Numbered from the stretch's first letter, positions 29,032 through 54,187 are shown. The stretch is 64,000 nucleotides of DNA from Thermodesulfobacteriota bacterium (GCA_040754335.1 JBFMCV010000002.1:62001-126000), one strand, 5' to 3'. A program made the numbers and translations. Notes: generated from the sequence alone by a model not told the origin.

Positions 29032-29895
29032 TTAGATTGCCATTAGCTCTTCTGGTGCATCACCCCTTATCCATACTTCTCCTAAGATCTTTTCGGGACT
29101 AATCAAATTGGAAGTAGTAAACCAATACATTATCCCTAACCCTAGTTCGCCTGTAACTTTGATGAGAGACTTCAGCCTCGTATTATTTGTAGTTACAATG
29201 AGTACTCTGAAATTTTTGCCACTAAACCTATCCCTAAAAAGCCCCCGTTCAAGGTACATCTTATAACCCTTCATCTTCCGTTTAAATACTTTAGATGCTG
29301 TCTCCGTATACCTGTCAACCTCAAGGAAAAAGTGTGCGGTTCCCTTTGGAGTTTGTAACACAAAATAAGCATCAGGAATGAGAATGATGTTTTTTCCTCT
29401 TTCCCGGACCTTTTCTCCATATGAGATGTTTCCTTTTTTATATTTGAGCTCCTCCTTGTTCCTCCATTCCATGAGCGAATAGCCTTCGTTATTCTTGCAG
29501 GCCTCCTCTATCGTTAACCTGAATCGTGTTACTTCGAGCTCATGTTCGAGGAACTCCCCACGTACCCGGTTTTTGCTCTTTGACCATCCAAGCTCTTGCC
29601 TGGACATATTGAGCTTTTTGGAGAGCACCCGTGCTCCTTCGGTCCAGAGCGAGTAGAGAAGCTCGCTTTTCCCTTCGGTCACGGGCCTCTGAATTCTATC
29701 CAGGAACCCGTGATCGTATAGCTTCCGTAAGCGCCTGTCCGCAAAGCTCTTTGAAGAAAAAAACATCTTTGCAAGCTGTGTCGAGGTTAAAAAGCGATAG
29801 GTGTATAGTGATCGTAATATCTCTAAGTCCCTTGGACTCAGCTCAAGCCTTTCCTCCGGCACTCTTTCAGTCCACGCTCTTCTCCTTTCCTTCAT
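29032..29895 (-). CDS. Replication-relaxation family protein
   Basis: The protein has 287 residues. The N-terminal winged helix (LSPRDLEILRSLYTYRFLTS, about 18-37, then LRKLYDHGFLDRI) and a following alpha/beta nuclease-like domain match the replication-relaxation family (PF13814) of mobile elements. It is usually encoded beside a TraD/VirD4-like ATPase, exactly as here: the ATPase stop lies 4 bases before this ATG. I chose the ATG at 29895, which has AGGAA/AGGGG upstream, over the one at 29922. It likely binds the element's origin or transfer region. Confidence 0.82.
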   Translation of the reverse strand: MKERRRAWTERVPEERLELSPRDLEILRSLYTYRFLTSTQLAKMFFSSKSFADRRLRKLYDHGFLDRIQRPVTEGKSELLYSLWTEGARVLSKKLNMSRQELGWSKSKNRVRGEFLEHELEVTRFRLTIEEACKNNEGYSLMEWRNKEELKYKKGNISYGEKVRERGKNIILIPDAYFVLQTPKGTAHFFLEVDRYTETASKVFKRKMKGYKMYLERGLFRDRFSGKNFRVLIVTTNNTRLKSLIKVTGELGLGIMYWFTTSNLISPEKILGEVWIRGDAPEELMAI

Positions 29896-29899
29896 ACCC

Positions 29900-39337: not shown

Positions 39338-39357
39338 AGTTGCCTGAACAGGCAACT
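39338..39357. promoter_or_regulatory. Palindrome AGTTGCCTG-AA-CAGGCAACT (site 1 of 5)
   Basis: This is a perfect 9+2+9 inverted repeat in the leader of the XRE gene. It is the best copy of a motif with consensus TTGCCT-N4-AGGCAA found five times between 39.3 and 54.1 kb. Confidence 0.75.
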
Positions 39358-39416
39358 ATGAGGGGATATAAAAAAACTGCATAGAGCAGTCTGTTTTATT
39401 GAGCGAAGTTAAAAAT

Positions 39417-39440
39417 AAAGAGGAATTTCTTCCTCTTTTT
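39417..39440. terminator. Bidirectional hairpin terminator
   Basis: AAAGAGGAA/TTCCTCTTT is a 9-bp stem. It is followed by TT on the plus side and ATTTTT on the minus side. On the minus strand it lies between the promoter at 39.5 kb and the XRE gene, so it may attenuate that transcript. Confidence 0.6.
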
Positions 39441-39515
39441 GATCGACTCTTAGCTTCTTATGGGATTGTTAATTAAGTGTTTTTGGATTGATTATATGGC
39501 TAAAGAATTGAGCTT

Positions 39516-39544
39516 ATAATAACACATAGTAGATATTATGTCAA
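39516..39544 (-). promoter_or_regulatory. Promoter of XRE-replication operon
   Basis: TTGACA (39539-39544) and TATTAT (39516-39521) are spaced 17 bases on the minus strand. The 16 bases just upstream (39542-39557) match those upstream of the promoter at 51.3 kb in 15 of 16 positions. The leader to the ATG is about 240 bases. Confidence 0.7.
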
Positions 39545-39572
39545 TAGTAACAGAGGGTTATAACATTCTAGT

Positions 39573-39588
39573 TTGCTTCAATAGGCAA
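39573..39588. promoter_or_regulatory. TTGCC-type palindrome (site 2 of 5)
   Basis: TTGCTT-CAAT-AGGCAA pairs at five of six positions. Read on the minus strand, GGAAACTTGCCTATT aligns with the sequences at sites 3 and 4. It lies between the divergent XRE gene and the small gene before the recombinase. Confidence 0.65.
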
Positions 39589-39635
39589 GTTTCCCTCCCT
39601 ACCCATATTTCATCTTGTAGGCCATTGTGTAGGCA

Positions 39636-39809
39636 ATGACATCAACTAATGAAACTACCGAGAATACAAAAAGGAACCCGCGGAAAGGCAATAGCAATAA
39701 TAAAAATATAGAAAATGCCCTAAAACTTAGATTCCTGGCCTCAGATTTATCTGATGAAGAAAAAGAGGGGCTCTTATTTAGGGTATTTGATATTTTGCTT
39801 TATGAATGA
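39636..39809 (+). CDS. Small hypothetical protein upstream of serine recombinase
   Basis: This is a 57-codon frame, polar and Asn/Thr/Lys-rich at the N-terminus, with a helical C-terminus (ALKLRFLASDLSDEEKEGLL). It sits about 210 bases before the recombinase and 50 bases after a TTGCC-type palindrome. The ribosome site is weak (AGG too near the ATG). It could be a small partner such as a recombination directionality factor, but nothing proves it is expressed. Confidence 0.45.
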   Translation: MTSTNETTENTKRNPRKGNSNNKNIENALKLRFLASDLSDEEKEGLLFRVFDILLYE

Positions 39810-39900
39810 CCGGCTGTAATCAGATAAGAAAGATAACTTAATCGTTTAGCTTTCTAAAAGCGTATTTGTCACTTTATACAGTTTTGCTAATATGAGAAAA

Positions 39901-39969
39901 GGCAGACTAGAAGGCATAATCTATATTAATTGCCTATAAAAGTGGGGTAACAGTGCCTTCTAGTCTGCC
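39901..39969. repeat. 16-bp perfect inverted repeat upstream of serine recombinase
   Basis: GGCAGACTAGAAGGCA (39901-39916) and its exact complement (39954-39969) flank 37 bases, 51 bases before the recombinase ATG. Large serine recombinase attachment sites are imperfect palindromes next to the gene, so this is a candidate att site; a regulatory hairpin is the alternative. Confidence 0.6.
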
Positions 39970-40020
39970 GACAAAGAAGCGAATACTGTTGCCCCTCTTT
40001 TGTTATAACTTAACCCAATT

Positions 40021-41859
40021 ATGGATCTTCATAAGCAAATTAAAAAACTTAGAGCAGCCATATATATCAGAGTGTCAACCGATGATCAACTCAAAGGCTT
40101 CAGTCCCGAATTCCAGCTCGAAGACTGTAGACGTGCCGCCGTGGAAAGGGATGATTGTACACTGAAAGGTGTGCATATTTTTGATGATAGCAAGTCAGGA
40201 TCAAGCGATGACCGGCCGGGCTGGAAAAAGCTCATGGAGACCGCAAAGCAGGGAGAAATAGACGTTATCTACTTTTGGAAGCTGGATAGAATGATGCGCA
40301 GCGAACGCCATTTTTATAAAAATGAAGAGGAGCTAGAGAAATTAAATATACAACTTAGGTTTGCTACACAGAACTTGGATGATCCATTTACCCGAGCTAT
40401 CCAGGTCGCAGTCGCTGCGGAAGAAAGAAGAAAAATATTGGAGCGTACGCGGCGAGGTAGGGAAATGGCTGTAAGAGCAGGGAAATGGGTTATGGGCACT
40501 CCCCCGTATGGATATAAATACAACGGAAAGACTAAAAAGCTTGATATAAATGAGGAACAAGCGCAGTGGGTTAAAAAATTCTACGAATGGTTAGTCAACG
40601 AAAAGTGCTCTCTTAAAGAAATCGCACGACGTGCGAACGCTTTTGGGGTACCTACTTGGACCCAAAGCATAAAGACAAAGAGAAAGACATCAAAAATATG
40701 GTGGCCGAGGACATTGGGCAGAATACTCACAAACGAAACTTATACAGGAAAAGCGTATTTTAGGAAATACAAGAGAAATCATAAGGGTTTGAAAACGTAT
40801 GAGAATGAAGATTATATGAGGGCTAAAACTGAATGGATACCCATAGAAGTTCCTCAAATTATCTCGAAGAATCTTTTCGACAAAACCATTGTTCAACTGA
40901 GAAAAAATAGTGAATTCGCAAAAAGAAAGAAAATACGTTCCTACATGTTTAGCGGACTTGTTTATTGTTCAAAATGTGGCTTCAAGCTAAAGGGAAACTA
41001 TGCTAACCCAAGTAGTCGCTCCGCCAAGGGTTCGCGCTGTTATGTTGGTTATGTCCCGAAAAATCATGTAGGTAACACACGCAGATGCCGTTATTGCGGC
41101 GCTATAGCAGAAACCAGACTTATGCCAATTTGGAATACTTTAGAAAACATTCTAATGAGCCCGGACACAATTTATGACAAACTCGATAAATACACCGGAG
41201 AGAACAAAAAAGATGGGTTATTAAATAAAATCGTTCTAATTGATAAGGAATTGAAATCATTGAATGAGGAACAAGAAAGAACAAATATAGCATTTCTAGA
41301 AATTTGCTCCATAGATGAAAATGAATACAAGCAACGTATTAAATCTATCAAGAGTAGGCAGGTGACACTGGAGCATGAGAGAAGAAAATATAATGATTAC
41401 ATCATTTCTGAAGAAGAAAGAATTAAACGGGTAGATACTATTACTAACTTATACCAAAAAATCAAATATAAAATTACTCATGCGTCTTATGAAACGAAAT
41501 CAAAAATACTTCACATATTTGTAGATAGAATTGATTTGAATCTTGATACGAGCGCAGCATTAGTTAAATTCAATATTCCTATGGATGTACATCATAATTT
41601 TGAAGGACAATTGTTGGGACGGCAGTCTCTCAAAAAAGAGGAAATCACCTCCGATAAATGGCTTAACGACAACAATGAGACTAAAGATTTCGGCAACTTT
41701 TACCTAGATGTACAGGTCCCACTTATTTCCTTTAAAGAGATCCAGAAGGTCACCACTCCTTCACACTCCAGATACTATAAGGGTGAAAAAGACATGCCGC
41801 TTTTAAAACTAACCCGCAAGAAAGCCGAGGATAAGGAATTAAGGGCTTATTTTCAATAA
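40021..41859 (+). CDS. Large serine recombinase (resolvase/integrase family)
   Basis: The protein has 612 residues. Catalytic domain: RAAIYIRVSTDDQ with nucleophile Ser19, WKLDRMMR and the conserved Arg cluster (EERRKILERTRRG near 138-150). Then come the recombinase domain (GTPPYGYKY, GRILTNETYTGKA), a zinc ribbon (YCSKCGFKL ... CRYCGA, about 318-360) and a long coiled coil (about 395-490). The last 80 residues (from about LLGRQSLKK) are an extension that recurs as separate copies at 44.8 and 48.0 kb. It is probably the integrase of this element or of the cargo array. Confidence 0.93.
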   Translation: MDLHKQIKKLRAAIYIRVSTDDQLKGFSPEFQLEDCRRAAVERDDCTLKGVHIFDDSKSGSSDDRPGWKKLMETAKQGEIDVIYFWKLDRMMRSERHFYKNEEELEKLNIQLRFATQNLDDPFTRAIQVAVAAEERRKILERTRRGREMAVRAGKWVMGTPPYGYKYNGKTKKLDINEEQAQWVKKFYEWLVNEKCSLKEIARRANAFGVPTWTQSIKTKRKTSKIWWPRTLGRILTNETYTGKAYFRKYKRNHKGLKTYENEDYMRAKTEWIPIEVPQIISKNLFDKTIVQLRKNSEFAKRKKIRSYMFSGLVYCSKCGFKLKGNYANPSSRSAKGSRCYVGYVPKNHVGNTRRCRYCGAIAETRLMPIWNTLENILMSPDTIYDKLDKYTGENKKDGLLNKIVLIDKELKSLNEEQERTNIAFLEICSIDENEYKQRIKSIKSRQVTLEHERRKYNDYIISEEERIKRVDTITNLYQKIKYKITHASYETKSKILHIFVDRIDLNLDTSAALVKFNIPMDVHHNFEGQLLGRQSLKKEEITSDKWLNDNNETKDFGNFYLDVQVPLISFKEIQKVTTPSHSRYYKGEKDMPLLKLTRKKAEDKELRAYFQ

Positions 41860-42043
41860 GACATAAGTATTTTTGATAAGATAAAAATAACAAGAACACA
41901 ACTCATCGTTTCAAGCAAGGTTGATAATAGGAATATTGGGCTTATATACTTTCATATAAGCTGGAATTGAGGAGTTAATGATTATAGGGACTTATGGCCC
42001 ATCTTCCGGCTAATATGGGTAAGACTTTAATCATAACGCCTTT

Positions 42044-43840
42044 ATGACAGGCACAGCTCAGAAAACAACAGAATGTCAGAACTGTGGGGAGAGTGCTAAC
42101 CGGCACTTTCCCTATAATGCAAAGCTTTTTAGGAAAAATATAAGCAATATAGAAAATGGAGAGATATTAGTATGTGAGTCCTGCAGAGATTATTTTGAAA
42201 GAAGAAAAGCCTATTCAGAAAATGTACTTACCTCCAAATCTGACAAAAGACTTATAGTAGCCGGACCTGGCACAGGAAAAACATATACTTTTCAGGAAGT
42301 ATTAAAAACTATCCCAAGGGGACAGAAAGCTATTGTATTCACTTTGATAAACAACTTGGCAAATGATTTGAGAGAAGATTTATCTACTTTAGAAAACGAC
42401 TTAATTAAGGTGTCCACTTTTCACGGATTCTGTAGAGAATTATTACATTCAAAAATTGGTCTACAAGACATAACTAAAGATTTTAGATACTTTCCCTTAC
42501 TTCCTTTTTTGATTGAACAAGATGCACTCATACTAGACTTTGAATTCGGTCGTCCAGACTTTCACGCGAGCTTTGCAAATCTAAACCAAAATGCAGCTCA
42601 GGAATTTTATCTGTCTAGAGCGAGTTACTACAATTCTGCTAGCCATGATGATGCAGTTTATCGAGTTTTTAAGTATTATGAGCGAAATCAAAACCGCATC
42701 CCTTCTTTTGGAATAGTGATTGCTGATGAATATCAAGATTTTAACCGACTTGAGTCTTCGTTTATATCATTACTTACGAATAGGAACAAAGCTCTTATTG
42801 CGGGAGATGACGATCAAGCACTTTATGGTTTTCGGCACGCATCAAAAGATTATATTAGACAACTTTATTCCGATGCAACATACGAAATACTTGAGTTACC
42901 GTTTTGTAGCCGTTGTACACCTGCAATTGTAGAGGCGACTAATTATTTTGTTAAAGCAGCCCAGGGTCTCGGACTATTAGATAAAAGGATACCTCGGGAG
43001 TTTGAGTGTTACTTGCCGGACAAACATCGCGAACACAAAGCATATCCAGAGATTGAAGTCGCTCACTGTTCGCGCCCGGAAACGAGCTTTAAGTATATAA
43101 AAGATCGGATAGTTGATTTAACCGCGAGCGAAAATCTTACTTCTTATGCGGGTAAAGATATACCCTTTCTAATAATGGGGGCGGAATCTGGATACCGAAT
43201 TAAGAAAGTTGCCGAATATCTACAAGAGAATCTAGATGAGGAAATATATTCAATAGAGACCCCTGAAGAGAGGGACCAACTGGAAATTGAACATGGATAT
43301 AAAATCTTACACAAGGGAGTAAATACGAATTTAGGTTGGCGTATAGTAATGCACTTTGATCCGCCCGAGGATATAAAGAGCATAATTTCAAAGACATATG
43401 AAAGCGATATTGCAATTGAAGAAATGCTAACTCAAGAATATATTACTAGACACGGAGACGAAATACGTACTTTATTTGAAAATCAAGAGAAACCAGTGAA
43501 AACAGAAGAGTCTGAAGCGGAGCCAAACAAAATACGAATAAGACTTACTAATTTTTACGGTTCAAAAGGGTTATCAGCACTGCATACCTTTATTATCGAT
43601 CTTAACAATTATTCTTTTCCTGCGAACCCAGATGTAATAACGGATGATGAAATATGTAAGTTTCTCGTGGCACTTACAAGAGCAAAAAATTCATGCACAC
43701 TAGTCGTATTCAAAGTGTTCGACAAGACAATTGGAAAGACAGTAGATAGACCCTCTAGATTTATAGAGATGTTACCGGCCCATATCTTAAGACATAAATA
43801 TTTTAAAGTTCAAAAAGGCAACTTGGTAGAAAAAGGCTAA
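42044..43840 (+). CDS. UvrD/Rep-like superfamily 1 helicase with N-terminal zinc ribbon
   Basis: The protein has 598 residues. A zinc ribbon-like start (CQNCGES ... CESCRDYF, about 8-50) precedes SF1 helicase motifs: Walker A AGPGTGKTYTF (near 74-84), motif Ia, motif II as IADEYQDFN, motif III GDDDQALYGFR, and motif VI near VALTRAKNS. It translocates on DNA with ATP. No nuclease domain is seen. It is the first cargo gene after the recombinase and converges with the TIGR02391-type gene. Stand-alone SF1 helicases of this size are common defence partners; the partner here is not proven. Confidence 0.85.
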   Translation: MTGTAQKTTECQNCGESANRHFPYNAKLFRKNISNIENGEILVCESCRDYFERRKAYSENVLTSKSDKRLIVAGPGTGKTYTFQEVLKTIPRGQKAIVFTLINNLANDLREDLSTLENDLIKVSTFHGFCRELLHSKIGLQDITKDFRYFPLLPFLIEQDALILDFEFGRPDFHASFANLNQNAAQEFYLSRASYYNSASHDDAVYRVFKYYERNQNRIPSFGIVIADEYQDFNRLESSFISLLTNRNKALIAGDDDQALYGFRHASKDYIRQLYSDATYEILELPFCSRCTPAIVEATNYFVKAAQGLGLLDKRIPREFECYLPDKHREHKAYPEIEVAHCSRPETSFKYIKDRIVDLTASENLTSYAGKDIPFLIMGAESGYRIKKVAEYLQENLDEEIYSIETPEERDQLEIEHGYKILHKGVNTNLGWRIVMHFDPPEDIKSIISKTYESDIAIEEMLTQEYITRHGDEIRTLFENQEKPVKTEESEAEPNKIRIRLTNFYGSKGLSALHTFIIDLNNYSFPANPDVITDDEICKFLVALTRAKNSCTLVVFKVFDKTIGKTVDRPSRFIEMLPAHILRHKYFKVQKGNLVEKG

Positions 43841-43886
43841 TTATCAAATTTTTAATGTGTTAGTCCAACAATGAACAGTCCTGCCC

Positions 43887-44693
43887 TCAATAGCCTGTTC
43901 TTATGGCACCATCAAGCTTTCTATGAGCAAAGGAAGCCATGGTTAATAGTTCTAAAGCGTCACGTTCCTCGATTTTCCATTTTATCTTAGGTGCATGCGC
44001 TGTAGTATTTCTAAACATGCCGAATATGCCTTTTAATAGATTTGCAAAGCCAACTTGCTCCATCTTTTCAGTTTCTGTGCGAAGACTGTTGATTGCTAGT
44101 ACCGGCTTCTGCCCAACCAAAGTAGCTTCAACCAACTGGGTCCCGTCTTTATCTTGACCAGACATTTCTCTCAATCTATCAGCGATGCTCTTAGTCGCCT
44201 CAAACACTGCATGAAAGTAATTTTCTTGTAAAAACTCCGCACGGCAGAAATTTAATACGTAATAATGAACTCCTCTATCCGATAATTTCTTTTGAAGCGC
44301 ATTAGCTCTCAGATGCGCATCATCTAAAGTACTAACGAGTGTCGCTTGTACAATCTTCCCATCTGCTCTCAACTCATATCCCTGTAAAGCAAGGATGACA
44401 TTCAATTGGTCCTTTGATCGATTAAAATATTCCCTATTATGTACATATCTAACGGGGTCCATCACATTCTGAATAAACGCAAACACATTATTTGAGCATC
44501 GATCTTTTTCTTGCTTATTCTTTAACGCGGAAAACAATCTATGTCTTTTAGTAATAGTGGGCTCCATATCCTCAATACCTGAAGAATTTAGTAACTTCCC
44601 AATCTCTGTACCAGTAAGCCCAGAATCGGTGTCTCCAAAAAGATCACAGATTGCCTGAAGAGCATTATCGCTTAACTTTGGGATACTTGCCAT
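43887..44693 (-). CDS. TIGR02391-family (Ymh-like) protein with HEPN-type motif
   Basis: The protein has 268 residues from the ATG at 44693; a longer TTG start is possible. The C-terminal half has the TIGR02391 pattern (FHAVFEATKSIADRLREMSG ... LLKGIFGMFRNTTAHAPKI). FRNTTAH matches the R-x4-6-H motif of HEPN RNases, so it may be an abortive-infection-type ribonuclease. The N-terminal part is a helical region (ALQAICDLFGD). It is transcribed toward the helicase gene with a 46-base gap, so the two may be independent cargo or an antagonistic pair. Confidence 0.78.
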   Translation of the reverse strand: MASIPKLSDNALQAICDLFGDTDSGLTGTEIGKLLNSSGIEDMEPTITKRHRLFSALKNKQEKDRCSNNVFAFIQNVMDPVRYVHNREYFNRSKDQLNVILALQGYELRADGKIVQATLVSTLDDAHLRANALQKKLSDRGVHYYVLNFCRAEFLQENYFHAVFEATKSIADRLREMSGQDKDGTQLVEATLVGQKPVLAINSLRTETEKMEQVGFANLLKGIFGMFRNTTAHAPKIKWKIEERDALELLTMASFAHRKLDGAIRTGY

Positions 44694-44794
44694 ACACTTA
44701 ATTATATACAAATTCTAATTATCCAATCAGATGTGGTAGTTATCAGGAATTAGCATACCCACACCTTATCACAATAGAGCAAAGTATTGGAAAC

Positions 44795-44810
44795 TTGCCC
44801 ATCTAGGCAA
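44795..44810. promoter_or_regulatory. TTGCC-type palindrome (site 3 of 5)
   Basis: TTGCCC-ATCT-AGGCAA pairs at five of six positions. It lies 9 bases before the start of the recombinase-tail reading frame copy B and is embedded in the longer shared sequence GAAACTTGCCCAT. Confidence 0.65.
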
Positions 44811-44819
44811 CTCTATCCG

Positions 44820-45065
44820 ATGGAACGGCAGTCTTTCAAAAATCAGGATAACACCCACGAAAAACGGCTTAACCACAATAATGAGGGTAAAGATTTAGGT
44901 AGTTTTTCGCTTGATGTTAGGGTGCCGTTAATATCTTTTGAAGAGGTCCGGGAGGTAACCAACCCTACACGGTCGAAGCATTATAGAGGAGCAAAAGACT
45001 TACCTCTAAGGAAGCTCATTGCCAAGAAAGCTGAAGATAGGAGCTTTAGGGCTTATTACCAATGA
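44820..45065 (+). pseudogene. Serine recombinase C-terminal tail, copy B (81 codons)
   Basis: The frame matches the last 81 residues of the recombinase at 40021-41859 along its whole length and ends at the same point (RAYYQ versus RAYFQ). Shared cores include RQSxKxxx, LDVxVPLISFxExxxVT and KKAEDxxxRAY. The homology begins at GGAACGGCAGTCT, close to the recombinase GGGACGGCAGTCT. The frame is intact with an ATG, and a palindrome sits just upstream, so it could be a small gene rather than a dead remnant. It marks the boundary between two cargo modules. Confidence 0.75.
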
Positions 45066-45141
45066 CATTTGTGACTTAGAGACTATATCCCCAATGAAGG
45101 ATACTAGACTAATGGTGTTGACAATCTCACAAGCAGTTCGG

Positions 45142-47814
45142 TCACCATCCAGCTCTTGCCGATTTCTTTGCATCCTTGCGAGCTTCCCTTTCTTTCCGGG
45201 CAGCCTTTTGAGAGGATCTAAGCTCCTTTTCCAATTCGTCAAATTCGTTCCGTAGTGCAGATAAGTCGTCTAATTTGGGAGGGCTTTCTCTCTGCAAGTC
45301 ACTTCTATTATGAGCGATGATCATTTCCGATAGTTTGCCATGCATATTTACAATCCTAAGAGCCAAAGACTGATCATATATCGCTTCTTCAAGATTCTGC
45401 ACTTTAATATGATCGTCGTATCTTTGAACCGTTCCTGCAAAAAGTACATCTTCAATCAATGCCTCACAAGCACTACGTAAATAACTAAATGCTGTATCTA
45501 GTGCGTGTTCCTGATCTTTGGCACCGAGAGATTCATAATCTTTTACTGCTGCTTGAGAATCGTCTTTCAAACTCTTTAAGTCGGATATTTTGGGGCTAGT
45601 ATTATCTTCCATACATCCTGGTATGCCATTTATTTGCCTCATCCAATGCGCAACAACAGGAATATTGTTTTTCTCCGCATGTTTAGTCAACTGACTCATA
45701 AAGACAATATCATGTGTAAGAACTACGACCTGCCGATGTCCAGCCTCAATTGCCAATCTTTGAGCTATCTTATCCTTCCGCTCATGATCTAATGAAGTCA
45801 CCGGATCATCGAATATAATCCCGCAATTATTTTTATCAAGCTGAACCTCTGTCAAAAAGTCCGCAATTGAACACGCATTTTGCTCACCTTCACTCAGTAT
45901 CTGGCTTGGATTGTAGTCCTCAGCGAAATCAAGCCTATATTCTTTTACAGTAGTGCCATGCTCCCCACTGGCATTCATAATCAGATTAAAATCACATCCC
46001 AGCATTGCAAGTTCCTGATTAAATACGCCTTTGTAATCTTGAGCTACACCCACCAGAAATGACTCGGTTCTCTTTTTTGTTGTGGCCATCTTTATACCGG
46101 CAAAACTAACTCCATTGGCTTTAGATAACCAATGTAGAAATGCAATATATTCTAATCCAGCATCCTTAACAGCTGTAACCTGTTTTTTATGCTTGAGGGC
46201 ATTTAATTGAGCGATAAGCGTTGCGATTTCACCGCTTGGGTCAACAAGTCTTGACTCCTCGGTTGTTTTTGAATTGACGAGAGTATCGATTTTGGTAAGG
46301 TCAACATCAGGTACATCGTCACGATTTATCTCCTGCAGGTTACCTAATTTAGAGGTCCAGTCATCCAACACATTCGCTAGTGTAGAGAACTGATCTTTTA
46401 TTTGTGCTAAATATTTAGGATCGTCTTCACTAATTACTTTAACGCCTGCATCTGTTGCAAGGAATTTTGGATACATCATCTTTATATATTGCAAATTCTG
46501 TAATAAGGCAGATTGGTTTCGAGTTAATTCGGATAGTTCGCTCTCAGCTCTACTTTCAAGGAACTTCCAATATTTATGAAAGAGTTCATTGGCATTTTTC
46601 TTAAGTTTCTGATGACATAACATACAATGAGTCGGCTCTTTATTTTCATTTATTGCCTTCTCTTTTTCATAAAGAGTTTTAGCTGCACTAATCAATGCTT
46701 TCCACTCAGCACTTCCGATTGTTTTCACAATGCCATCGTCAAAACTCTTAACACTTAGACCTTCTATTATCATTTTCTTTTCCAATATTTCTTTAAGAAG
46801 TTGGTTAGCTTCCTCCTTTTTTGCCTCAGTAAATTGGTCTGTTACGTTTTTCAATAGCGCTTTAAATGCTTGTAGATTTTGGCGATCAGTAGCTAGTTGC
46901 GATTTCTTTTTGGGAATATCTAGTTTTTTCTTTGCCTCGATGAGCTCTTGGAGTTCAGTTATTTTTTGACCATCAACATTGGCATCGAAGTTTGCATGCA
47001 ATAGAAAATCAACCTCTTTGGTGTGGCCGGCAATCGCCTGGCAGAATATTGCGGTAGAAGAAGTTGCGTCATCAAGGAACATTGACTGAAATGGATTATC
47101 TTTTTTCTTTGCATTCTTTTCGTTATTAAGTTTTTCTTCTAGCTGTGAAATAGTAACAGCAACCTTATCGAATATCTTGATTTGGGCTGGAGTGAAATTT
47201 ACATTGTTTGATTGGTCAAGGTGTATCAAAACACTTTCTGAGTCAAAGACAGAAAAGCGTTTGAGGTCGTCATAATTTTCACCAAGTGAATATTCGATCT
47301 CGTTTACGTTGCCCAAACCATCATCCACAACGAAAGTCGCTTTTGCTTCTGAATCTAACACGGAAGTAGTTCGTACGTTCGGTAATATCTCACGTTCTCC
47401 TCGCGAGAAACACGCATTACATAAAAGACGACCAACTCCACTCTTACCGCTACCGTTGCCCCCGTAAACAAGAGTTAGGTTGGGTCCAAACTTTACTGAA
47501 CAATCTTTTGAAAGAGCATTGACGTCTACAAAGTCCTTAACCTCTAATATTTTCATTTTTCTCATACCGCCAGGTACTTCCGGAGCAACAACGATCTCAT
47601 TCTTAAAGGATATATCGCGCTTATTCGGCAAAGAATCAATCAAGCCGAGGTATTCAGAAAGGTACTGATAGCACTGATCAATATCCTCATCGGTCAATGA
47701 ATCTTTTTCGAGATTGATCTTCCAAACGTATTGTTCCCAGTATGGCTTATTGGATAGCCAGGCTTCCAAAGTTTCGATTGGCGTGCCTTTATCACTTGTC
47801 ATAATATTTTCCAC
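45142..47814 (-). CDS. AAA ATPase with zinc-hook motif, RloC/PrrC-like
   Basis: The protein has 890 residues. Walker A is GGNGSGKS (118-125), the signature is LSEGEQ (640-645), Walker B is GIIFDDP with the D-loop SLDHE (665-678), and a His switch follows at VVVLTHD. Two long coiled coils (about 225-390 and 410-600) flank CMLC (Cys397, Cys400), a Rad50-type zinc hook. This is the layout of RloC. The C-terminal part has YLRSACEALIED (Arg780, Glu784), compatible with the Arg-x3-Glu of the PrrC/RloC anticodon nuclease, with several His downstream. Other AAA defence ATPases share this fold, so tRNA cleavage is inference. It is a single cargo gene between tail copies B and C. Confidence 0.8.
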   Translation of the reverse strand: MENIMTSDKGTPIETLEAWLSNKPYWEQYVWKINLEKDSLTDEDIDQCYQYLSEYLGLIDSLPNKRDISFKNEIVVAPEVPGGMRKMKILEVKDFVDVNALSKDCSVKFGPNLTLVYGGNGSGKSGVGRLLCNACFSRGEREILPNVRTTSVLDSEAKATFVVDDGLGNVNEIEYSLGENYDDLKRFSVFDSESVLIHLDQSNNVNFTPAQIKIFDKVAVTISQLEEKLNNEKNAKKKDNPFQSMFLDDATSSTAIFCQAIAGHTKEVDFLLHANFDANVDGQKITELQELIEAKKKLDIPKKKSQLATDRQNLQAFKALLKNVTDQFTEAKKEEANQLLKEILEKKMIIEGLSVKSFDDGIVKTIGSAEWKALISAAKTLYEKEKAINENKEPTHCMLCHQKLKKNANELFHKYWKFLESRAESELSELTRNQSALLQNLQYIKMMYPKFLATDAGVKVISEDDPKYLAQIKDQFSTLANVLDDWTSKLGNLQEINRDDVPDVDLTKIDTLVNSKTTEESRLVDPSGEIATLIAQLNALKHKKQVTAVKDAGLEYIAFLHWLSKANGVSFAGIKMATTKKRTESFLVGVAQDYKGVFNQELAMLGCDFNLIMNASGEHGTTVKEYRLDFAEDYNPSQILSEGEQNACSIADFLTEVQLDKNNCGIIFDDPVTSLDHERKDKIAQRLAIEAGHRQVVVLTHDIVFMSQLTKHAEKNNIPVVAHWMRQINGIPGCMEDNTSPKISDLKSLKDDSQAAVKDYESLGAKDQEHALDTAFSYLRSACEALIEDVLFAGTVQRYDDHIKVQNLEEAIYDQSLALRIVNMHGKLSEMIIAHNRSDLQRESPPKLDDLSALRNEFDELEKELRSSQKAARKEREARKDAKKSARAGW

Positions 47815-47972
47815 TATCCCACATAGTTAATGATATTGATATAACTACCACAAACTAACGTAATTTTAAAGACCACAATTTTGATTAATATTTTAGTAAG
47901 ATATCACCTAACTACATGGGATCATTACAAATATGAATCAAATGCTCAGCGCGAGTACTCTTTACATAGTCA

Positions 47973-48209
47973 GTGAAACTTGCCCATAAACACAACTCTT
48001 ACCGAGGAGGCGGTTGTCTTTCAAAAAAACGAGAAAACAACCCTGAAAAATGGCTTAACAACAATGATCGCTCTGAGAATTTGAGCAGTTTTTCGCTTGA
48101 TGTGAGGGTTCTAATAATTAGCTTTGAGGAGCTCCGCCTCTGTTTCTGCAGTGGTTACAAAGCAACTGTTTATACCGACGTCCCTTTGTATAAGCTCCCT
48201 AAAAAGTAG
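47973..48209 (+). pseudogene. Serine recombinase C-terminal tail, copy C (degenerate)
   Basis: This is the third copy of the recombinase tail. KWLNNNDRSENLSSFSLDVR matches copies A and B, but after FEELR the sequence drifts and rejoins only at VPLYKLPKK before an earlier stop. Its upstream DNA (GAAACTTGCCCAT...CAACTCT) aligns with copy B, not with copy A, so B and C share a more recent common form. It lies between the RloC-like and the sigma-54-activator-like genes. Confidence 0.7.
47980..47995. promoter_or_regulatory. Decayed TTGCC-type palindrome (site 4 of 5)
   Basis: TTGCCC-ATAA-ACACAA keeps the left half only. The flanks align with site 3. Confidence 0.5.
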
Positions 48210-48271
48210 ACAAGCGATTGTTCTGGAAGATATACAATCATAAAAATAGAACTTGGCCTATAATTATAAGT

Positions 48272-50359
48272 TTAAGCATTCAAAAGTCCGCGGTTTATAA
48301 GACAATCAAGTATTTCTTCGTAGGTAATTTTTTCATACGATTCTTGTTTACTATCTTTTAGTTCTTTCAATCTGCAGAGATCATTAATGAAACTATCTAA
48401 TGCTCTAATGTTATAGTCCCATCTCAGGTTCATTAGTAGCTTTAAACCTTTGATATCGATATATCTAATTATTCTCGGGGATTCCTTTTTTTTCTTTGCT
48501 TCCACTTTCTTCTTTTTGTTATGTTCTCTAAGGAAATGATTAATGAGAAGAGGAATATCTTCTTTTCTTTCTCTTAATGGAGGAATAGGGAAATAGAAAC
48601 GATCTACTCTGGAAATAAAGGCGCTGCTGAATCCATCACGTTCTAGCTCATCAAGCGATTTATTGCTCGCAAACACTAACAATAAATTAACTTTTATAGG
48701 ACTTAGACCTTTTTTAGGATATATTTCCCGTGGTGATTCAAGAACGCGCAACAACTGATCAACTAATTCTTTTTGAATCTTATCTATTTCATCTAGAAAA
48801 AGAGTGCCAAAAAACATGTGCGCCTTCATAAATTCACCTGGATTAGTATCGTCGCCCCAGAGAATTTCTTCAGTTATTTGTGCACAGTTCAAGGTCCTGA
48901 AGTTAAACCGTAATTTGTTTTTATTCCAATCCCTCGATTTGATCTTATCACCGTGATTTAATATGTCGCATTCATTATAAAAACTAAGATAAGACTGATA
49001 ATCCTTTTGAACTTGGAGCTTAGAATCTTTAATCTGTTTATTAATCGCCTTTGCGTTCCATGAACGAGGACTAATCAGGTGACATATTTTGGCAAGCTTC
49101 TCTTTCCCGCTTCCAGGCTTACTATAGAAAAATATAATCCCCGGTTCTTGGTCCTTTGGAATTACATTTTTAATTCGAACTAATATATCTAAAATATCTG
49201 GATCAGCTGTGCAGAAATTTTCATATATATCGTTAATCTCTTTGTCAATATATTTCCTTCCCTTTTTAATATGTTTTTCTAGCTTATCTTCAAGATTGTC
49301 TCTGCATTCACTCAACTCTATCGGAGGTTCCTCTTGAATTTCCGAACATAAACGAATCAGATTTTCTAGTACGGCTATATTAATACGGCGTGGTGTTTTA
49401 ATGCTGACCCATTCTAGTTCAAGCAGTCTTGCTGATATTTGTCGGAATATATATTCGAGACGTCGAACATTATAATCAATTACAGGTTCCTCAAATGCCC
49501 CACAATAAGTTGAAATTTTGTTTAAAAATCGCTTTGTTGGGAAATTCGTTAAATTTATAGGAATGATTAAATGACAAAACGCTTTAGGATTTTCATGAGC
49601 ATCTTGTTTTTTTCGCATTATAGAATAACAATATGTGAGCAGAAAAACCCTTAATAAAATTGATTTATCTTCCAGCCTCAACCTTCGTAATTCCTTTTCT
49701 TTGGTAACCAACGAATTATTTGTCAAATGATTACTAAATTCTTCAAGAAGACTGTTATAATCTTTAACAAATTCGCCCAATTTTTCTGCATCTTTACCAA
49801 TTATAATTTCAACGAAGTTCTCCTTATTGTATTCTCCGCGAAGCTTTGCTTCTAATCCTTTCCAGATGCTGTGACTAATATTGAAAATCGATTTAGAATT
49901 ATTATTACCTTTGTCAGAGCCAAAATGAACTTGGAGGGAACCCCTAAGATCATCGCAATATAATAGGCTTAATTCACGCAAGGCAACGCGGTCAGTCCGC
50001 AAGTTCTCTATATTTGCTTCTTCGACTCCCGACAAATTAAAATCAGGGTGACCAGCTTTAAAGGGGTTGTTTTCCTCTGGATATCTACATCTCATATAGT
50101 CCCCGAAATTTGGGCTTATGTATTGAAAGGACGAAGCAAGGTGCTTTGTTTCTTTTAGAATGATCTGAATAGAGTTATTATGCGATAATAACATGTATAT
50201 CCGTTCTCTAACCAAATTCTCATATGCATATCTATCCTTCTTGTACAAATATTCTTGAGCTTCTTTCTGGAAATCGGGATCATCTATAAGTTTACTTGTC
50301 CGTTCAAGTAACGTTAGAAAGTCTTTATCTTTCTCTAATTCTTTATCCCCGGGTTCCAT
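48272..50359 (-). CDS. AAA+ ATPase resembling sigma-54 activators, unusual N-terminus
   Basis: The protein has 695 residues from the ATG at 50359. A start at 50386 falls inside a hairpin. The N-terminal 390 residues are helical and unfamiliar. The C-terminal AAA+ domain looks like a bacterial enhancer-binding protein: Walker A-like FYSKPGSGKEK, GTLFLDEIDKIQKELVDQLLRVLE, SRVDRFYFPIPPLRERKEDI. The GAFTGA loop that contacts sigma-54 is not present; the matching place reads GDDTNPGEF. No C-terminal Fis-type HTH is obvious. It probably does not activate sigma-54 promoters. Related proteins occur in defence islands, so it may be a sensor ATPase. It is preceded by an operator and a terminator-like hairpin. 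Confidence 0.75.
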   Translation of the reverse strand: MEPGDKELEKDKDFLTLLERTSKLIDDPDFQKEAQEYLYKKDRYAYENLVRERIYMLLSHNNSIQIILKETKHLASSFQYISPNFGDYMRCRYPEENNPFKAGHPDFNLSGVEEANIENLRTDRVALRELSLLYCDDLRGSLQVHFGSDKGNNNSKSIFNISHSIWKGLEAKLRGEYNKENFVEIIIGKDAEKLGEFVKDYNSLLEEFSNHLTNNSLVTKEKELRRLRLEDKSILLRVFLLTYCYSIMRKKQDAHENPKAFCHLIIPINLTNFPTKRFLNKISTYCGAFEEPVIDYNVRRLEYIFRQISARLLELEWVSIKTPRRINIAVLENLIRLCSEIQEEPPIELSECRDNLEDKLEKHIKKGRKYIDKEINDIYENFCTADPDILDILVRIKNVIPKDQEPGIIFFYSKPGSGKEKLAKICHLISPRSWNAKAINKQIKDSKLQVQKDYQSYLSFYNECDILNHGDKIKSRDWNKNKLRFNFRTLNCAQITEEILWGDDTNPGEFMKAHMFFGTLFLDEIDKIQKELVDQLLRVLESPREIYPKKGLSPIKVNLLLVFASNKSLDELERDGFSSAFISRVDRFYFPIPPLRERKEDIPLLINHFLREHNKKKKVEAKKKKESPRIIRYIDIKGLKLLMNLRWDYNIRALDSFINDLCRLKELKDSKQESYEKITYEEILDCLINRGLLNA

Positions 50360-50371
50360 AACAAAAATAAT

Positions 50372-50394
50372 CCCCTGATTGAACATATCAGGGG
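50372..50394 (-). terminator. Terminator-like hairpin in the leader of the AAA+ gene
   Basis: CCCCTGAT/ATCAGGGG is a perfect 8-bp stem with a 7-base loop. On the minus strand it is followed by ATTATTTTTGTT and then, 12 bases after the stem, the ATG at 50359. It would act as an attenuator or as a block to read-through from 50.5 kb. Confidence 0.6.
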
Positions 50395-50400
50395 TAAATT

Positions 50401-50452
50401 TATTGTTGGTACAACAATATAATTGTATATTTAATCATGAATTGGTTATCAA
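50401..50452 (-). promoter_or_regulatory. Promoter and downstream palindromic operator of the AAA+ gene
   Basis: On the minus strand TTGATA (50447-50452) and TATACA (50424-50429) are 17 bases apart. A perfect 8+3+8 palindrome, TATTGTTG-GTA-CAACAATA (50401-50419), covers the expected start point. It has GTTG-N3-CAAC, the reverse order of the operators at 34.9 kb. Confidence 0.65.
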
Positions 50453-50514
50453 ATCAAGGGGGTAATATAGCGTTAACAACTCGGGTAAAGTATAATGGGT
50501 TGTATTATCAGATT

Positions 50515-51153
50515 TCAAAAATCATTCCTTAACACCGGTGCTAATCCTAAGTCTTTACTGCGATCGTTCAGTTTAACTTGAGAGATGACTAAGCCTACAT
50601 TGTTAAAGCTACCGGCCGTCACTATTCTTCCGTCCCAGCCCGCATCCTTACAAAGGACTTCCGAAGATTCAAAAAGTCGCTTCCCATCACTTACAAAGTA
50701 ATAGAGAAAAGTCATATATACAATTTCAACTGCACTAGGTAGCTCTTCATCACCTCTAAGTAGGCGTATCTGCTCATGATAAGATTTAGTGCGTGAATTC
50801 GGTAATATAGATTTTCTAATCAAGTACCAACGAAGCGAGCAAGTCTTTTTACTTGCGAAGTTCTCATCAATATACCAATAATCAACATAGGAAAAGCACG
50901 GTTGTTCATCAAAATCAACACCAAATGTTTCCCGTATACTTGCAATAGTAATAAGGTTTCCAGAATTATCTTCGGGTACTCCAGGAAAAAGAATGTGGCT
51001 CTTTTTACATGTTTGAAGCGTACCATCAGAGTAAGGGATATGCTGAAGTGCATATCGGGCTTTTCTAGAGATAGATACCGATAAAATTCTGGCAACATCG
51101 TCTATTGCAATGAAATTTTTACCCATTATTTCTCTGGCTTCTCTTTGTGTCAT
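50515..51153 (-). CDS. Protein of unknown function
   Basis: The protein has 212 residues, soluble. The first 30 residues (FIAIDDVARILSVSISRKAR) have a helix-turn-helix flavour like phage or ICE regulatory proteins. The rest is a mixed alpha/beta domain with several aromatic clusters (FSYVDYWYID; YMTFLYYFVSDGKRLFES). I do not recognise a family. Its expression seems tightly controlled: a promoter with a 21-bp palindrome in the spacer lies at 51275-51303, and a structured 115-base leader hides the ribosome site. Confidence 0.65.
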   Translation of the reverse strand: MTQREAREIMGKNFIAIDDVARILSVSISRKARYALQHIPYSDGTLQTCKKSHILFPGVPEDNSGNLITIASIRETFGVDFDEQPCFSYVDYWYIDENFASKKTCSLRWYLIRKSILPNSRTKSYHEQIRLLRGDEELPSAVEIVYMTFLYYFVSDGKRLFESSEVLCKDAGWDGRIVTAGSFNNVGLVISQVKLNDRSKDLGLAPVLRNDF

Positions 51154-51268
51154 GTTGTGCCCTCTAATGAAGAGGAAGCTGTAATACAGCTATTTTGAGA
51201 GCACGAATCCGATGCCCTCATAAATGCTGTAGGCATCAGACTCCTCATAAAATTGATTTTTAACGTCT
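51154..51268 (-). promoter_or_regulatory. Structured 5' leader sequestering the ribosome site
   Basis: Three hairpins precede the start: GATGCC/GGCATC (51211-51237), AGCTGTA/TACAGCT (51177-51191, one-base loop) and CCTCT/AGAGG (51161-51175). The last stem contains the Shine-Dalgarno AGAGG, 7 bases before the ATG. Translation is therefore likely to be regulated. It does not match a riboswitch class I know. Confidence 0.6.
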
Positions 51269-51274
51269 TACCTA

Positions 51275-51303
51275 TATATAGCATATATACCATATATATG
51301 CAA
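51275..51303 (-). promoter_or_regulatory. Promoter with 21-bp palindromic operator in its spacer
   Basis: On the minus strand TTGCAT (51298-51303) and TATATA (51275-51280) are 17 bases apart. The spacer is nearly all operator: GCATATATA-CCA-TATATATGC (51281-51301), a perfect 9+3+9 palindrome. The upstream 16-mer (51301-51316) is almost identical to that at 39542-39557. Confidence 0.7.
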
Positions 51304-51359
51304 TAATAACAGAGGGATACGATCTTCTGAATATGGATCTTAGAATTAAGGTATAAAAC

Positions 51360-51382
51360 AGGACGGTATTAATTACCGTCCT
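51360..51382 (-). terminator. Terminator at end of the 51.4-54.1 kb operon
   Basis: AGGACGGTA/TACCGTCCT is a 9-bp perfect stem with a 5-base loop. On the minus strand TGTTTTAT follows. On the plus side TTAGTTTTATTTTT follows, so it may work both ways. Confidence 0.75.
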
Positions 51383-51425
51383 TTAGTTTTATTTTTAGGT
51401 ATATTTAGTTGTTAAAGATCCTTTC

Positions 51426-51713
51426 TTAAGCTGTACTCTTCTTCCACATTCCCAAAAGCTCAGCCAAGATGACCATCAGGATGTGCTTGCAGATATTTTC
51501 GTGCACAAACCTGTCAGGGCAGGAGCAAAAATATTTCCCTGAGCCGTTGATCCCTACTGCATACTCTTTCGTCTCATTTAAAACATACGCCCTTGTCTCG
51601 TGTGCCTCTCGTTTAAGGATATTTATCTTATACCTTCCTTCCATCACGGCCTGCAGTGCCCTTCCCACACGAGCTTCCTCCGCTTTGAGAATAAGCTCAC
51701 ATTCTGTTTTCAA
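51426..51713 (-). CDS. SWIM zinc-finger protein
   Basis: The protein has 95 residues. The SWIM motif C-x-C-x(n)-C-x-H is visible as YFCSCPDRFVHENICKHIL (about 64-82). Upstream is a short beta segment (YAVGINGSGKYF). SWIM fingers bind DNA or proteins. It overlaps the end of the coiled-coil gene by 17 bases and is the last gene of an operon with the coiled-coil, SSB-like and DUF932-type genes. It probably helps DNA replication or recombination of the element. Confidence 0.85.
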   Translation of the reverse strand: MKTECELILKAEEARVGRALQAVMEGRYKINILKREAHETRAYVLNETKEYAVGINGSGKYFCSCPDRFVHENICKHILMVILAELLGMWKKSTA

Positions 51714-52140
51714 GGTGTATCACCTCGCCATCGGATGAGTTGACTAAACAACTCTCAATTCTCACGAGCGTTACGATCTGCTCAAGAACTCTAAGTTTCT
51801 TTTCCAGGAGCTCGACCTCAACCCTCATAAATCTTTCCTGTTTCTCAAGATGATTGTACTGCACCTTGAGTGTCCAATATTCAGAATTAATTTTCAGTCT
51901 TTTTTGCAGTTCAGCATTTCTCAAAGTTTCGTTTGAATATGCTTTCTTTCCATTGCCGTCGGATTCGGTTGAAACGTCGTATGCAACGTCAGATTCAATT
52001 TCCTTCATCTTCTCCATGATCAACAGTTTCTCTTCAAAGAGAATTACGAAGTCCATTTTCTTTCTCTGAAAAGATTCAATAAACTCCTTCAGCTCATTCT
52101 TTAACCCAACCGCTTCAGAAATGATATGCTCTCTATACAT
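51697..52140 (-). CDS. Coiled-coil hypothetical protein
   Basis: The protein has 147 residues, almost wholly helical with heptads (about 5-50 and 75-135). It has no Cys and no known domain. It is located between the SSB-like and SWIM genes, 11 bases after the former, and its end overlaps the SWIM gene. It is probably a structural or bridging subunit in the same DNA-handling operon. Confidence 0.7.
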   Translation of the reverse strand: MYREHIISEAVGLKNELKEFIESFQRKKMDFVILFEEKLLIMEKMKEIESDVAYDVSTESDGNGKKAYSNETLRNAELQKRLKINSEYWTLKVQYNHLEKQERFMRVEVELLEKKLRVLEQIVTLVRIESCLVNSSDGEVIHLENRM

Positions 52141-52151
52141 AGCATCCTCCG

Positions 52152-52547
52152 TTAGAAGGGAATATCCTGTTGTATGTCTTCATCTTCAGATTTGGGAATT
52201 GGTTCATACACATACTTCTCCAGTTTCCTGGCCGCAGCTTCTACTTCAGCTGTGCTAATCATATTCCCGTTGGTCTTTAACATCTCAACTGCCGAGCTTA
52301 TAAGGGATAGCCTCGTGATTCGGACATCCTTAGCAGTAATGTTTTCCTTGACCGCTTCCTCCGGGCTTATGAACCTCAACTCCTTAATCCACTTCCCGTT
52401 CTTTCCGTCTACTTTGATTTCTACCGCGTCTCCTTCTTTGGGTTCTTCTACAGGATCATATTGGGAAAAATTGAACCAATTACCTCCTATATTGATTCCC
52501 TTTTCGTTAACTGTTTCTACAATACCCCTAACTGTCTTTGTCTTCAT
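52152..52547 (-). CDS. SSB-like protein with C-terminal DIPF tip
   Basis: The protein has 131 residues from the ATG at 52547, which has a textbook ribosome site (AAGGAGG). The longer frame is rejected because it runs through a GC-rich intergenic segment. The N-terminal 60 residues have small OB-fold-like beta strands (RGIVETVNEKGINIGGNWFN, then GDAVEIKVDG). A helical middle is followed by an acidic tail that ends EDEDIQQDIPF. The last four residues are the DIPF tip of bacterial SSB proteins, which docks helicases, primases and exonucleases. I infer an element-encoded ssDNA-binding or SSB-mimicking protein. Confidence 0.72.
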   Translation of the reverse strand: MKTKTVRGIVETVNEKGINIGGNWFNFSQYDPVEEPKEGDAVEIKVDGKNGKWIKELRFISPEEAVKENITAKDVRITRLSLISSAVEMLKTNGNMISTAEVEAAARKLEKYVYEPIPKSEDEDIQQDIPF

Positions 52548-52575
52548 GCAGACCTCCTTATTTATGAAATTTATA

Positions 52576-52735
52576 GGCGGGAGGGGGGGGTGAACCTCCC
52601 GCCCTGAGAGTACGCTTCCTTCCCTGCTTACCGGAGACACCCCTGCCATCTATCCCCTATGGACTGGACTCATTCCGGCGAGAGCGCAGTGGGCCCGCTA
52701 GGACCAGAACTCTGGCAGGAGAAAACAGGAAGGTG
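52576..52735 (-). other. GC-rich structured intergenic segment, possible leader or ncRNA
   Basis: A hairpin GGCGGGAGG/CCTCCCGCC (52576-52603) and a second CCAGA-AC-TCTGG (52704-52715) lie in a 160-base non-coding stretch that is far more GC-rich than its neighbours. It sits inside an operon between the DUF932-type and SSB-like genes. It may be a structured leader or small RNA. No known RNA family was recognised. Confidence 0.45.
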
Positions 52736-53854
52736 TCAGTGGATTGCGTACTGGAATTGAGACGCTTCCCAGTTCGAAAAGTCAATCTGAGGAGCAAGGT
52801 TATCCAGATCCCAGTGCTTCTTGAACATGAGTTCGCCTGCATGAATCAGGACATTAAGCCTTTCCTTTTCCGGGATATGGGTGTAATGGGACCCGATTTC
52901 TGTAAGGTGATTGAACACCTGATAAGCAGTCACAGGAGTCCTCGCGGACGATTTCCAGGAAAGCGAGGAAGGTATGGCATCAGTATTCTCATAGCCGTAT
53001 GCCCTTGCAACCAGCGCAAGCGGAATCCTTCTTTCAAGATCGGCAACAAGCATTTCGCCGCCTTCGTCTTTAAGGCGGGCTATATAGGAATATGAATTCT
53101 CAAGCTCCCAATACGAAAGCTTCTTTTGGGTCAACAGAGATAGAGCTTCCGGATAGCGAGAGATGCGGTCAGGATCGTCCAACAGCAATCCAACCGCGTT
53201 TAAAATCCTTTCCAAATTCCTGCTCTTGAAGCTCATGCCTCCGTGAGCCGGGGCATAGGTCATGTTCGTACAGATAAGCCGTAAAAGCGACTCAGATATT
53301 GAAGGAGAATACATCTCAAGACTCGAAGCCGAGAATCCTATTCCGTATCTAAACAGGTCTTCGCTCTCGGACTTAATAGGAGAAAACGTGCCCGAAGTAT
53401 AGAAAAATGCCGTTGATGATACGTCATTAACATCAACAACCAAATTCTCTACGCCTGCTTTTTCAGACACCTTTAGATAGATGTCCTCAGTCATCTCAAG
53501 AAACTTCTTGAGAGACACGAAATCGCTTCGTCTCGGGAAAAGACCGATTACCGTGAATGATGTATCATCCACCTTGAAAGTAATTTCCTTCGGCGATCCC
53601 GTGGTTATCCTGCCCGAAAGCTCCTTCCACAAATCGGGCATTTGTGACGACATAGAGCGCGCGAAGTAATATGGTACTCCAAGCACCCGGCACAACTGGC
53701 CTGCAGACCTTTCGGAAAGAACGTATTCCCTGAAGTTCAGGGCTATCTTCCCTATCTCGGACGTTGGAACAATATCCGAAAGCCGCGCATGTACATACGA
53801 CTCGTCGAGCGAGTCATTCAAATTCCTAACCTCTTCGATTGAGGTTAAGCGCAT
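52736..53854 (-). CDS. DUF932-like (phage/plasmid) protein
   Basis: The protein has 372 residues. Its pattern (VLGVPYYFARSMSSQMPDLW near 58-77, DVNDVSSTAFFY, MTYAPAHGGMSFK, YQVFNHLTEIGSH) resembles the DUF932 family of plasmid and phage proteins, whose function is not known. It is soluble, with no known catalytic motif. It is the lead gene of the DNA-handling operon: DUF932-type, structured spacer, SSB-like, coiled coil, SWIM. DUF932 genes often sit near replication or anti-restriction genes. Confidence 0.75.
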   Translation of the reverse strand: MRLTSIEEVRNLNDSLDESYVHARLSDIVPTSEIGKIALNFREYVLSERSAGQLCRVLGVPYYFARSMSSQMPDLWKELSGRITTGSPKEITFKVDDTSFTVIGLFPRRSDFVSLKKFLEMTEDIYLKVSEKAGVENLVVDVNDVSSTAFFYTSGTFSPIKSESEDLFRYGIGFSASSLEMYSPSISESLLRLICTNMTYAPAHGGMSFKSRNLERILNAVGLLLDDPDRISRYPEALSLLTQKKLSYWELENSYSYIARLKDEGGEMLVADLERRIPLALVARAYGYENTDAIPSSLSWKSSARTPVTAYQVFNHLTEIGSHYTHIPEKERLNVLIHAGELMFKKHWDLDNLAPQIDFSNWEASQFQYAIH

Positions 53855-53906
53855 AGATACACCTCCTTATGTGGATTTTTTAAAGAACTTCTGACAATTT
53901 CCTTTC

Positions 53907-54071
53907 CTACAGGGACGGGCCGTTAAATAAAGCCCTCACAAGCTCAACGATGAAGTTCCCTCCGGCTACAATAAGGCCGAGGAAAACCTCAACACTAAAG
54001 CCCTGGTTGACTCCGATCCCAAGCAAGATGAGGAGAATTGCCAGCGACACTATGAAGCTTAAAATGCTCAT
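53907..54071 (-). CDS. Small two-helix membrane protein
   Basis: The protein has 54 residues: two hydrophobic helices (about 4-20 and 27-42) joined by a short polar turn, ending GNFIVELVRALFNGPSL. A clear ribosome site (GGGGAG, 5 bases before the ATG) supports expression. The size recalls holin-like or VirB2-like small proteins, but there is no sequence proof. It is upstream of the DUF932-type gene. Confidence 0.65.
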   Translation of the reverse strand: MSILSFIVSLAILLILLGIGVNQGFSVEVFLGLIVAGGNFIVELVRALFNGPSL

Positions 54072-54119
54072 ATGCTCCCCATCTTATGGGATATGGATAA
54101 GTGTCATAGGGTGGATTTC

Positions 54120-54135
54120 TTGCCTGTATAGGCAA
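54120..54135. promoter_or_regulatory. TTGCC-type palindrome (site 5 of 5)
   Basis: TTGCCT-GTAT-AGGCAA is a perfect 6+4+6 palindrome, 52 bases before the ATG of the second VirD4-like gene. It is also just upstream of the divergent minus-strand small membrane gene, so it may control both. Confidence 0.75.
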
Positions 54136-54187
54136 CTCCAATTTCCCATCCTGTTTTCTATCTACCTTGACTTTTAGACTGATAAGG

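Follow-up and report, generated by a model that had tools for sequence, protein, structure and literature searches.

Integrative elements and phages carry operators for master regulators of their own, such as ImmR of ICEBs1, SetR of SXT and RstR of the CTX phage, and comparable sites are bound by KorA/KorB in RK2. ICEs and IMEs are also known to accrete in tandem, which gives stacked modules separated by repeated site sequences. In the SCCmec/ECC cassette chromosome elements, large serine recombinases are found together with att-bounded modular cargo and tandem remnants (PMC6222049). Here we describe a palindrome, TTGCCT-N4-AGGCAA, that occurs five times in a putative mobile element of a Thermodesulfobacteriota bacterium. 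Positions are those of the window, the whole 64,000-nt stretch of DNA that was analysed, unless a contig is named.

The palindrome and the element that carries it

The five copies announced by an earlier, sequence-only reading could be read directly from the window sequence (sites X, Y, B, C and D in the table), and the set withstood counting: four copies with at most one mismatch were found against 0.13 expected, a number reached in 0 of 100 shuffles, while the fifth, at 47980, is decayed yet belongs to the same set. Allowing two mismatches, the window count is 4 against 2.9 expected, that is, not above chance, and specificity is therefore claimed at one mismatch or less. In the whole 3.26-Mb genome this stricter threshold returned seven places, four of them, including both exact copies, within these 15 kb. 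A chromosomal regulon outside the element was sought across the genome with the palindrome and with the directional pattern given below, and was not found. One perfect match in another genome (G012, C6:32694), which has a tyrosine recombinase gene nearby and lacks the long arm described below, was treated as chance.

The sites sit in a plasmid-like core comprising Replic_Relax, two VirD4/TrwB-like ATPases, an AEP-type primase and an XRE gene. The primase (35772-38108, minus strand), of the TOTE-type AEP family, comes immediately after two ORFs, one of DnaG-type zinc ribbon and one RuvX-like, and forms one operon with the XRE gene. A low-GC island (GC ~0.42 vs 0.55) runs from ~10.3 kb of the window (~10300) to ~129 kb of the contig (C2, ~129000) and additionally encodes an RND efflux system, a P-type ATPase and a TIR-domain gene. 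The best explanation is a mobile element of the integrated-plasmid or IME type. When 58 genomes of the phylum were searched, the only one besides this genome to have the XRE gene and the core was G006, which belongs to the same family and to another genus. Backbone proteins of the two elements are 60-91% identical. The zone from 39.6 to 51.35 kb is wholly different from G006 except for one short match of a site plus a tail, and identity breaks off precisely where the arm of site Y has its outer edge (12 of 12 bases, then background). Both genomes with the XRE gene carry the sites, and no other genome tested showed the clustered motif; the palindrome and the XRE gene thus co-occur in both elements, a comparison that the sequence-only reading had proposed. 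Searches of viral contigs and plasmids with the XRE protein brought no further element; a backbone protein had no match in viral contigs and plasmids, nor did the recombinase tail, the G006 recombinase or the site pattern in viral contigs. On the Sulfitobacter plasmid L065 (NZ_CP081110.1, 22128-26182), a large serine recombinase lies ~2 kb from a close relative (43%) of the second VirD4-like ATPase; the palindrome is absent from that locus.

Comparison of ten sites, five of this window and five of the G006 element, set in a common orientation, showed that bases outside the palindrome are conserved on a single side only, as far as +20, and that the other side stops at ~-10. Positions +10, +11, +14 and +15 are conserved in at least 9 of the 10 sites and +19 and +20 in all ten, the consensus of this arm being R-TTT-CCC-N3-CT. 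Every site consists of one short and one long arm. At X, Y, B, C, D and the G006 site g6_2, the long arm faces the nearest start codon, ~36-166 bp away; inspection by eye revealed no fixed spacing of promoters downstream of the sites. With at most three mismatches, the directional pattern matched four element sites and one other place in this genome, D falling outside the pattern, and five element sites and three other places in G006, in both cases with the other places at control level. Moreover, a matrix from the five G006 sites, run over 124 kb of this genome, returned the reported five as the top five (20.9-30.3 bits; next 15.7), and after reverse training, with a matrix from the sites of this window, those of G006 came out on top. 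The matrix scan of window and relative, which had been proposed as a check, thus recovered with each element's matrix exactly the five sites of the other. Site C is by itself non-significant, as many 3-mismatch matches exist; it was counted in the family because it forms, with site B, parts of one 162-nt repeat (72% identity) and because it ranks fourth in the scan with the matrix trained on G006 sites only. A longer dyad (54097-54145) has site D as its core, and in this dyad an outer motif, TTTCCC-TCC, is offset by ~5 bp between the arms, most clearly in G006.

Table. Sites, genes and gene fragments around the palindrome copies (positions in the window)
Feature	Positions	Strand	Remarks
XRE-family regulator, 90 aa	38993..39265	-	Pfam HTH_19 E 1.2e-5, HTH_3 1.3e-4; best candidate binder
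Site X	39340-39355; 9+2+9 palindrome 39338..39357	-	TTGCCTGAACAGGCAA, perfect; in XRE leader; long arm towards XRE
Two hairpin/T-run structures between promoter and X	39438-39417, 39392-39374	-	both kept in G006
Promoter-like TTGACA-17-TATTAT upstream of XRE	39516..39544	-	same feature in G006
Site Y	39573-39588; with arm 39573..39600	+	TTGCTTCAATAGGCAA, 1 mismatch; long arm GTTTCCCTCCCT points right; left edge of exchanged cargo zone
Small ORF, 57 aa	39636..39809	+	upstream of recombinase; a small ORF precedes the recombinase in G006 as well
Large serine recombinase, 612 aa	40021..41859	+	Resolvase + Recombinase Pfam; XisF, CcrB/CcrC models below cut-off
Tail A, 3' end of the 612-aa recombinase gene	41615-41857	+	
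UvrD/GajB-like helicase, cargo	42044..43840	+	Pfam / PADLOC
PD-Lambda-3_B / Hypoth_ymh defence-type gene, cargo	43887..44711	-	Pfam PF09509; PADLOC E 1.2e-89
Site B	44795-44810; feature 44790..44820	-	TTGCCCATCTAGGCAA, 1 mismatch; long arm left, towards minus-strand cargo gene
Tail B, recombinase gene 3' fragment	44821..45063	+	71% identical to 41615-41857; frame open, ~82 codons
AAA ATPase, PDC-S06 type (candidate defence), cargo	45142..47814	-	PADLOC E 1.2e-128
Site C	47980-47995; feature 47975..48005	-	TTGCCCATAAACACAA, 3 mismatches; decayed
Tail C, decayed recombinase 3' fragment	48024..48136	+	with stops
RtcR-like AAA protein, cargo	48272..50386	-	no site upstream (matrix scan)
Backbone protein, 372 aa	52736..53854	-	82% identical in G006, 51% in G022; operon starting left of D
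Site D	54120-54135; feature 54119..54138	-	TTGCCTGTATAGGCAA, 0 mismatches, 6+4+6; divergent gap, backbone operon / second VirD4-like gene
Second VirD4/TrwB-like ATPase, backbone	54197..55363	+	Pfam TrwB_AAD_bind 1.3e-14; 91% identical in G006

The XRE gene and the backbone sites X and D

Site X indeed lies in the leader of the XRE gene itself, as originally claimed, and its orthologue in G006 is perfect (C7:27237). This leader is that of the XRE-primase operon, and the site stands downstream of the conserved promoter and the two hairpin/T-runs. Site D was rightly placed upstream of the second VirD4-like gene, in the gap that this gene shares with a divergent backbone operon, and has a counterpart in G006 with one mismatch (C7:43680). 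The positions of X and D are thus conserved in the two elements compared, and both sites are free of recombinase remnants. The promoter region of the XRE gene recurs (~74%; 39515-39570 vs 51273-51328) where the cargo zone ends on the right, upstream of a minus-strand gene (50515-51153). A candidate small RNA (39516-39417, minus strand) would start at the XRE promoter and end before the XRE gene, at a T-run hairpin ~80-100 nt further on; both features are conserved in G006.

The HTH_19 and HTH_3 matches of the XRE protein are just under the Pfam gathering scores, a match to the RstR family is below the cut-off, and the nearest solved sequence is CylR2 (E 1.6e-5). Its only orthologue among the genomes searched, in G006, is 83% identical. 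Since the matrices interchange between the elements though the recombinases are only 20% identical, the binder should be encoded by the backbone, which makes the XRE protein the leading and natural candidate binder of the sites. This part could also be played by a different DNA-binding protein of the backbone, such as the Replic_Relax/MarR-like protein at 29032-29922.

Recombinase fragments and defence cargo

The cargo of both elements (window 42044-51153; L026:1-10900) is largely of defence type by PADLOC, so that the finding concerns a defence-cargo zone within a mobile element. Cargo types are PD-Lambda-3_B, PDC-S06, GajB-like and RtcR/CARF-like in this window, and an OLD/AriA-like ATPase and SbcC-like proteins in G006. 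The sequence-only reading had argued that tails B and C are, or were, expressed units and had assigned the sites upstream to them. Neither point was borne out: both tails are 3' fragments of a recombinase gene, C being broken, and the arms of the sites at 44795 and 47980 point left, to minus-strand cargo genes. Tail B was coding for much of its past, because its frame is open and the changes between tails A and B are mostly synonymous (NG86 dN 0.27, dS 1.02).

In the cargo zones of both elements, all four recombinase fragments (at B, C, g6_2 and g6_3) adjoin a site, and none of the six fragment-free cargo genes or operons has one by matrix scan (the RtcR-like and 212-aa genes here; the OLD-like, HD, DnaJ-domain and SbcCD-like ones in G006); these counts overstate independence, B, C and g6_3 being related by descent and two elements being known. 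As sites occur in the cargo zones with recombinase fragments and nowhere else, the evidence favours reading B and C as module junctions rather than as cargo promoters. Sequence identity breaks at the outer edge of Y and at the cargo side of B, C and g6_3, the last three having the site plus tail in common and not the cargo side. X, D, Y, B and C all lie upstream of genes, as in a regulon; g6_3 has no adjacent gene start.

G006 has another recombinase, of 598 aa, whose alignable part is 20% identical. One of the sites g6_2 and g6_3 is followed there by a 3' fragment of G006's own recombinase and the other by a piece of the type found in this window, so that two unrelated recombinases have each left joints made of a site and their own 3' end. 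No obvious copy of the site was seen inside the intact recombinase genes. We considered that the right half of site B might be coded within the recombinase gene, as an att site in a gene; the aligned DNA gave support not beyond chance. Other large serine recombinases of the phylum showed no site-linked duplicated 3' ends, and a scan of the genome contigs with the recombinase returned one relative (41%), without a tail. One large serine recombinase of G012 has a 79% tail copy elsewhere. A perfect 16-bp inverted repeat, GGCAGACTAGAAGGCA, occupies 39901-39969, with 37 nt between its arms, ~50 bp upstream of the recombinase gene of this window.

A proposed regulator site and joint

The motif is real, confined to the element, directional, conserved in a second element and linked to recombinase fragments. 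What it does is a matter of reading. The claim of a regulon under one regulator may be kept for X and D, which lie in backbone control regions kept in G006; it is not supported for B and C in the cargo zone, where the sites track recombinase fragments. We favour a combined reading, to which we give an even chance: the motif would be the regulator site of the element, copied with the ends of recombinase genes where defence modules were joined. X and D would most likely be bound by a regulator that the element itself encodes, the leading candidate being the 90-aa XRE protein; it would control the XRE-primase operon and the pair formed by the divergent operon and the VirD4-like gene, with a sign of regulation that we infer. 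At Y, B, C and their G006 counterparts, the site may be the joint at which recombinase-borne defence modules were added or exchanged, moving as a unit with the 3'-end fragment of the recombinase gene by a joining reaction that we likewise infer. Cargo may thereby also fall under the control of the regulator. Four points speak against this combination: the long arm extends past the needs of a simple XRE dimer, an obvious copy of the site is absent from the intact recombinase genes, independent events are few (two elements; B, C and g6_3 share descent), and the binder could be another DNA-binding protein of the backbone.

Recombination could also be the only function, all copies being att sites of large serine recombinases (attL/attR-like hybrids that join a short arm to a long one) and X and D old or unused. 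The sites do mark module edges, each pairs one short with one long arm, and the recombinase module is flanked by Y and a right-hand site, which face one another. However, serine integrases require matching central dinucleotides in partner sites, and those of Y, B and C differ (AA, TC and TA on the plus strand), assuming that crossover takes place at the centre of the palindrome. The two elements have recombinases that are 20% identical, and yet their motifs can be interchanged, so specificity fails to follow the recombinase, and X and D occupy promoter gaps without a recombinase remnant. The ~5 bp offset of TTTCCC-TCC in the arms of D does resemble that of the ZD motif, which in serine integrases is shifted between the half-sites of attB and those of attP (PMC3783163). 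On balance we consider a purely recombinational role somewhat unlikely. A plain regulon, in which each of the five units, also those of the cargo, has an XRE operator upstream, appears distinctly unlikely: the long arms face the nearest start codons and the XRE gene and sites co-occur in both elements, but the six fragment-free cargo genes or operons do without a site, g6_3 has no neighbouring gene start, and tails B and C are pieces of a gene rather than units.

The palindrome might finally act in structured RNA or as a single-strand element, by forming a hairpin in the leaders of downstream genes. The ten sites depart 12 times from perfect pairing, in 10 cases by a G-U pair on the gene strand and in no case by the opposite kind, and folds of the XRE leader RNA beat shuffles (z -5.1 and -3.0). 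Yet the changes amount to only ~six independent ones, the sites have no common upstream promoter, the bases of the long arm are unpaired, the leader z-scores owe much to the two other hairpins, and Rfam gave no match at E<=1 in window 26000-57000; we hold such a role to be highly doubtful.

Returning to a site that is both operator and joint, this would explain how the element keeps newly gained anti-phage genes under its own control, and would leave a readable record of past module insertions, with recombinase ends left at each joint. It is also conceivable, if unlikely, that recombinase-borne modules land on the element's own operator palindrome, that insertion rebuilds the operator on both sides, and that two unrelated recombinase families have converged on this operator; a new module would then arrive already wired to the regulator, and what stays behind as a fossil would be the end of the recombinase gene that was there before. 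The short motif could also be used to find this type of element in poorly studied bacteria.

Like the ImmR, SetR, RstR and KorA-KorB systems, the element has a small HTH regulator and palindromes, confined to the element, in the regulator's own leader and in other backbone control regions, binding being here a prediction; unlike them, it carries the motif also at cargo joints, beside recombinase fragments and with a one-sided conserved arm. With SCCmec/ECC (PMC6222049) it shares a large serine recombinase, modular cargo and tandem remnants, att function being putative here; the displaced gene ends are those of the recombinase gene itself, whereas in SCCmec/ECC they belong to a host gene such as rlmH. 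As in the tandem accretion of ICEs and IMEs, modules are stacked with repeated site sequences between them; in contrast to these, each module consists of one defence gene or a pair, and what is repeated is a site plus a 3' fragment of the recombinase gene.
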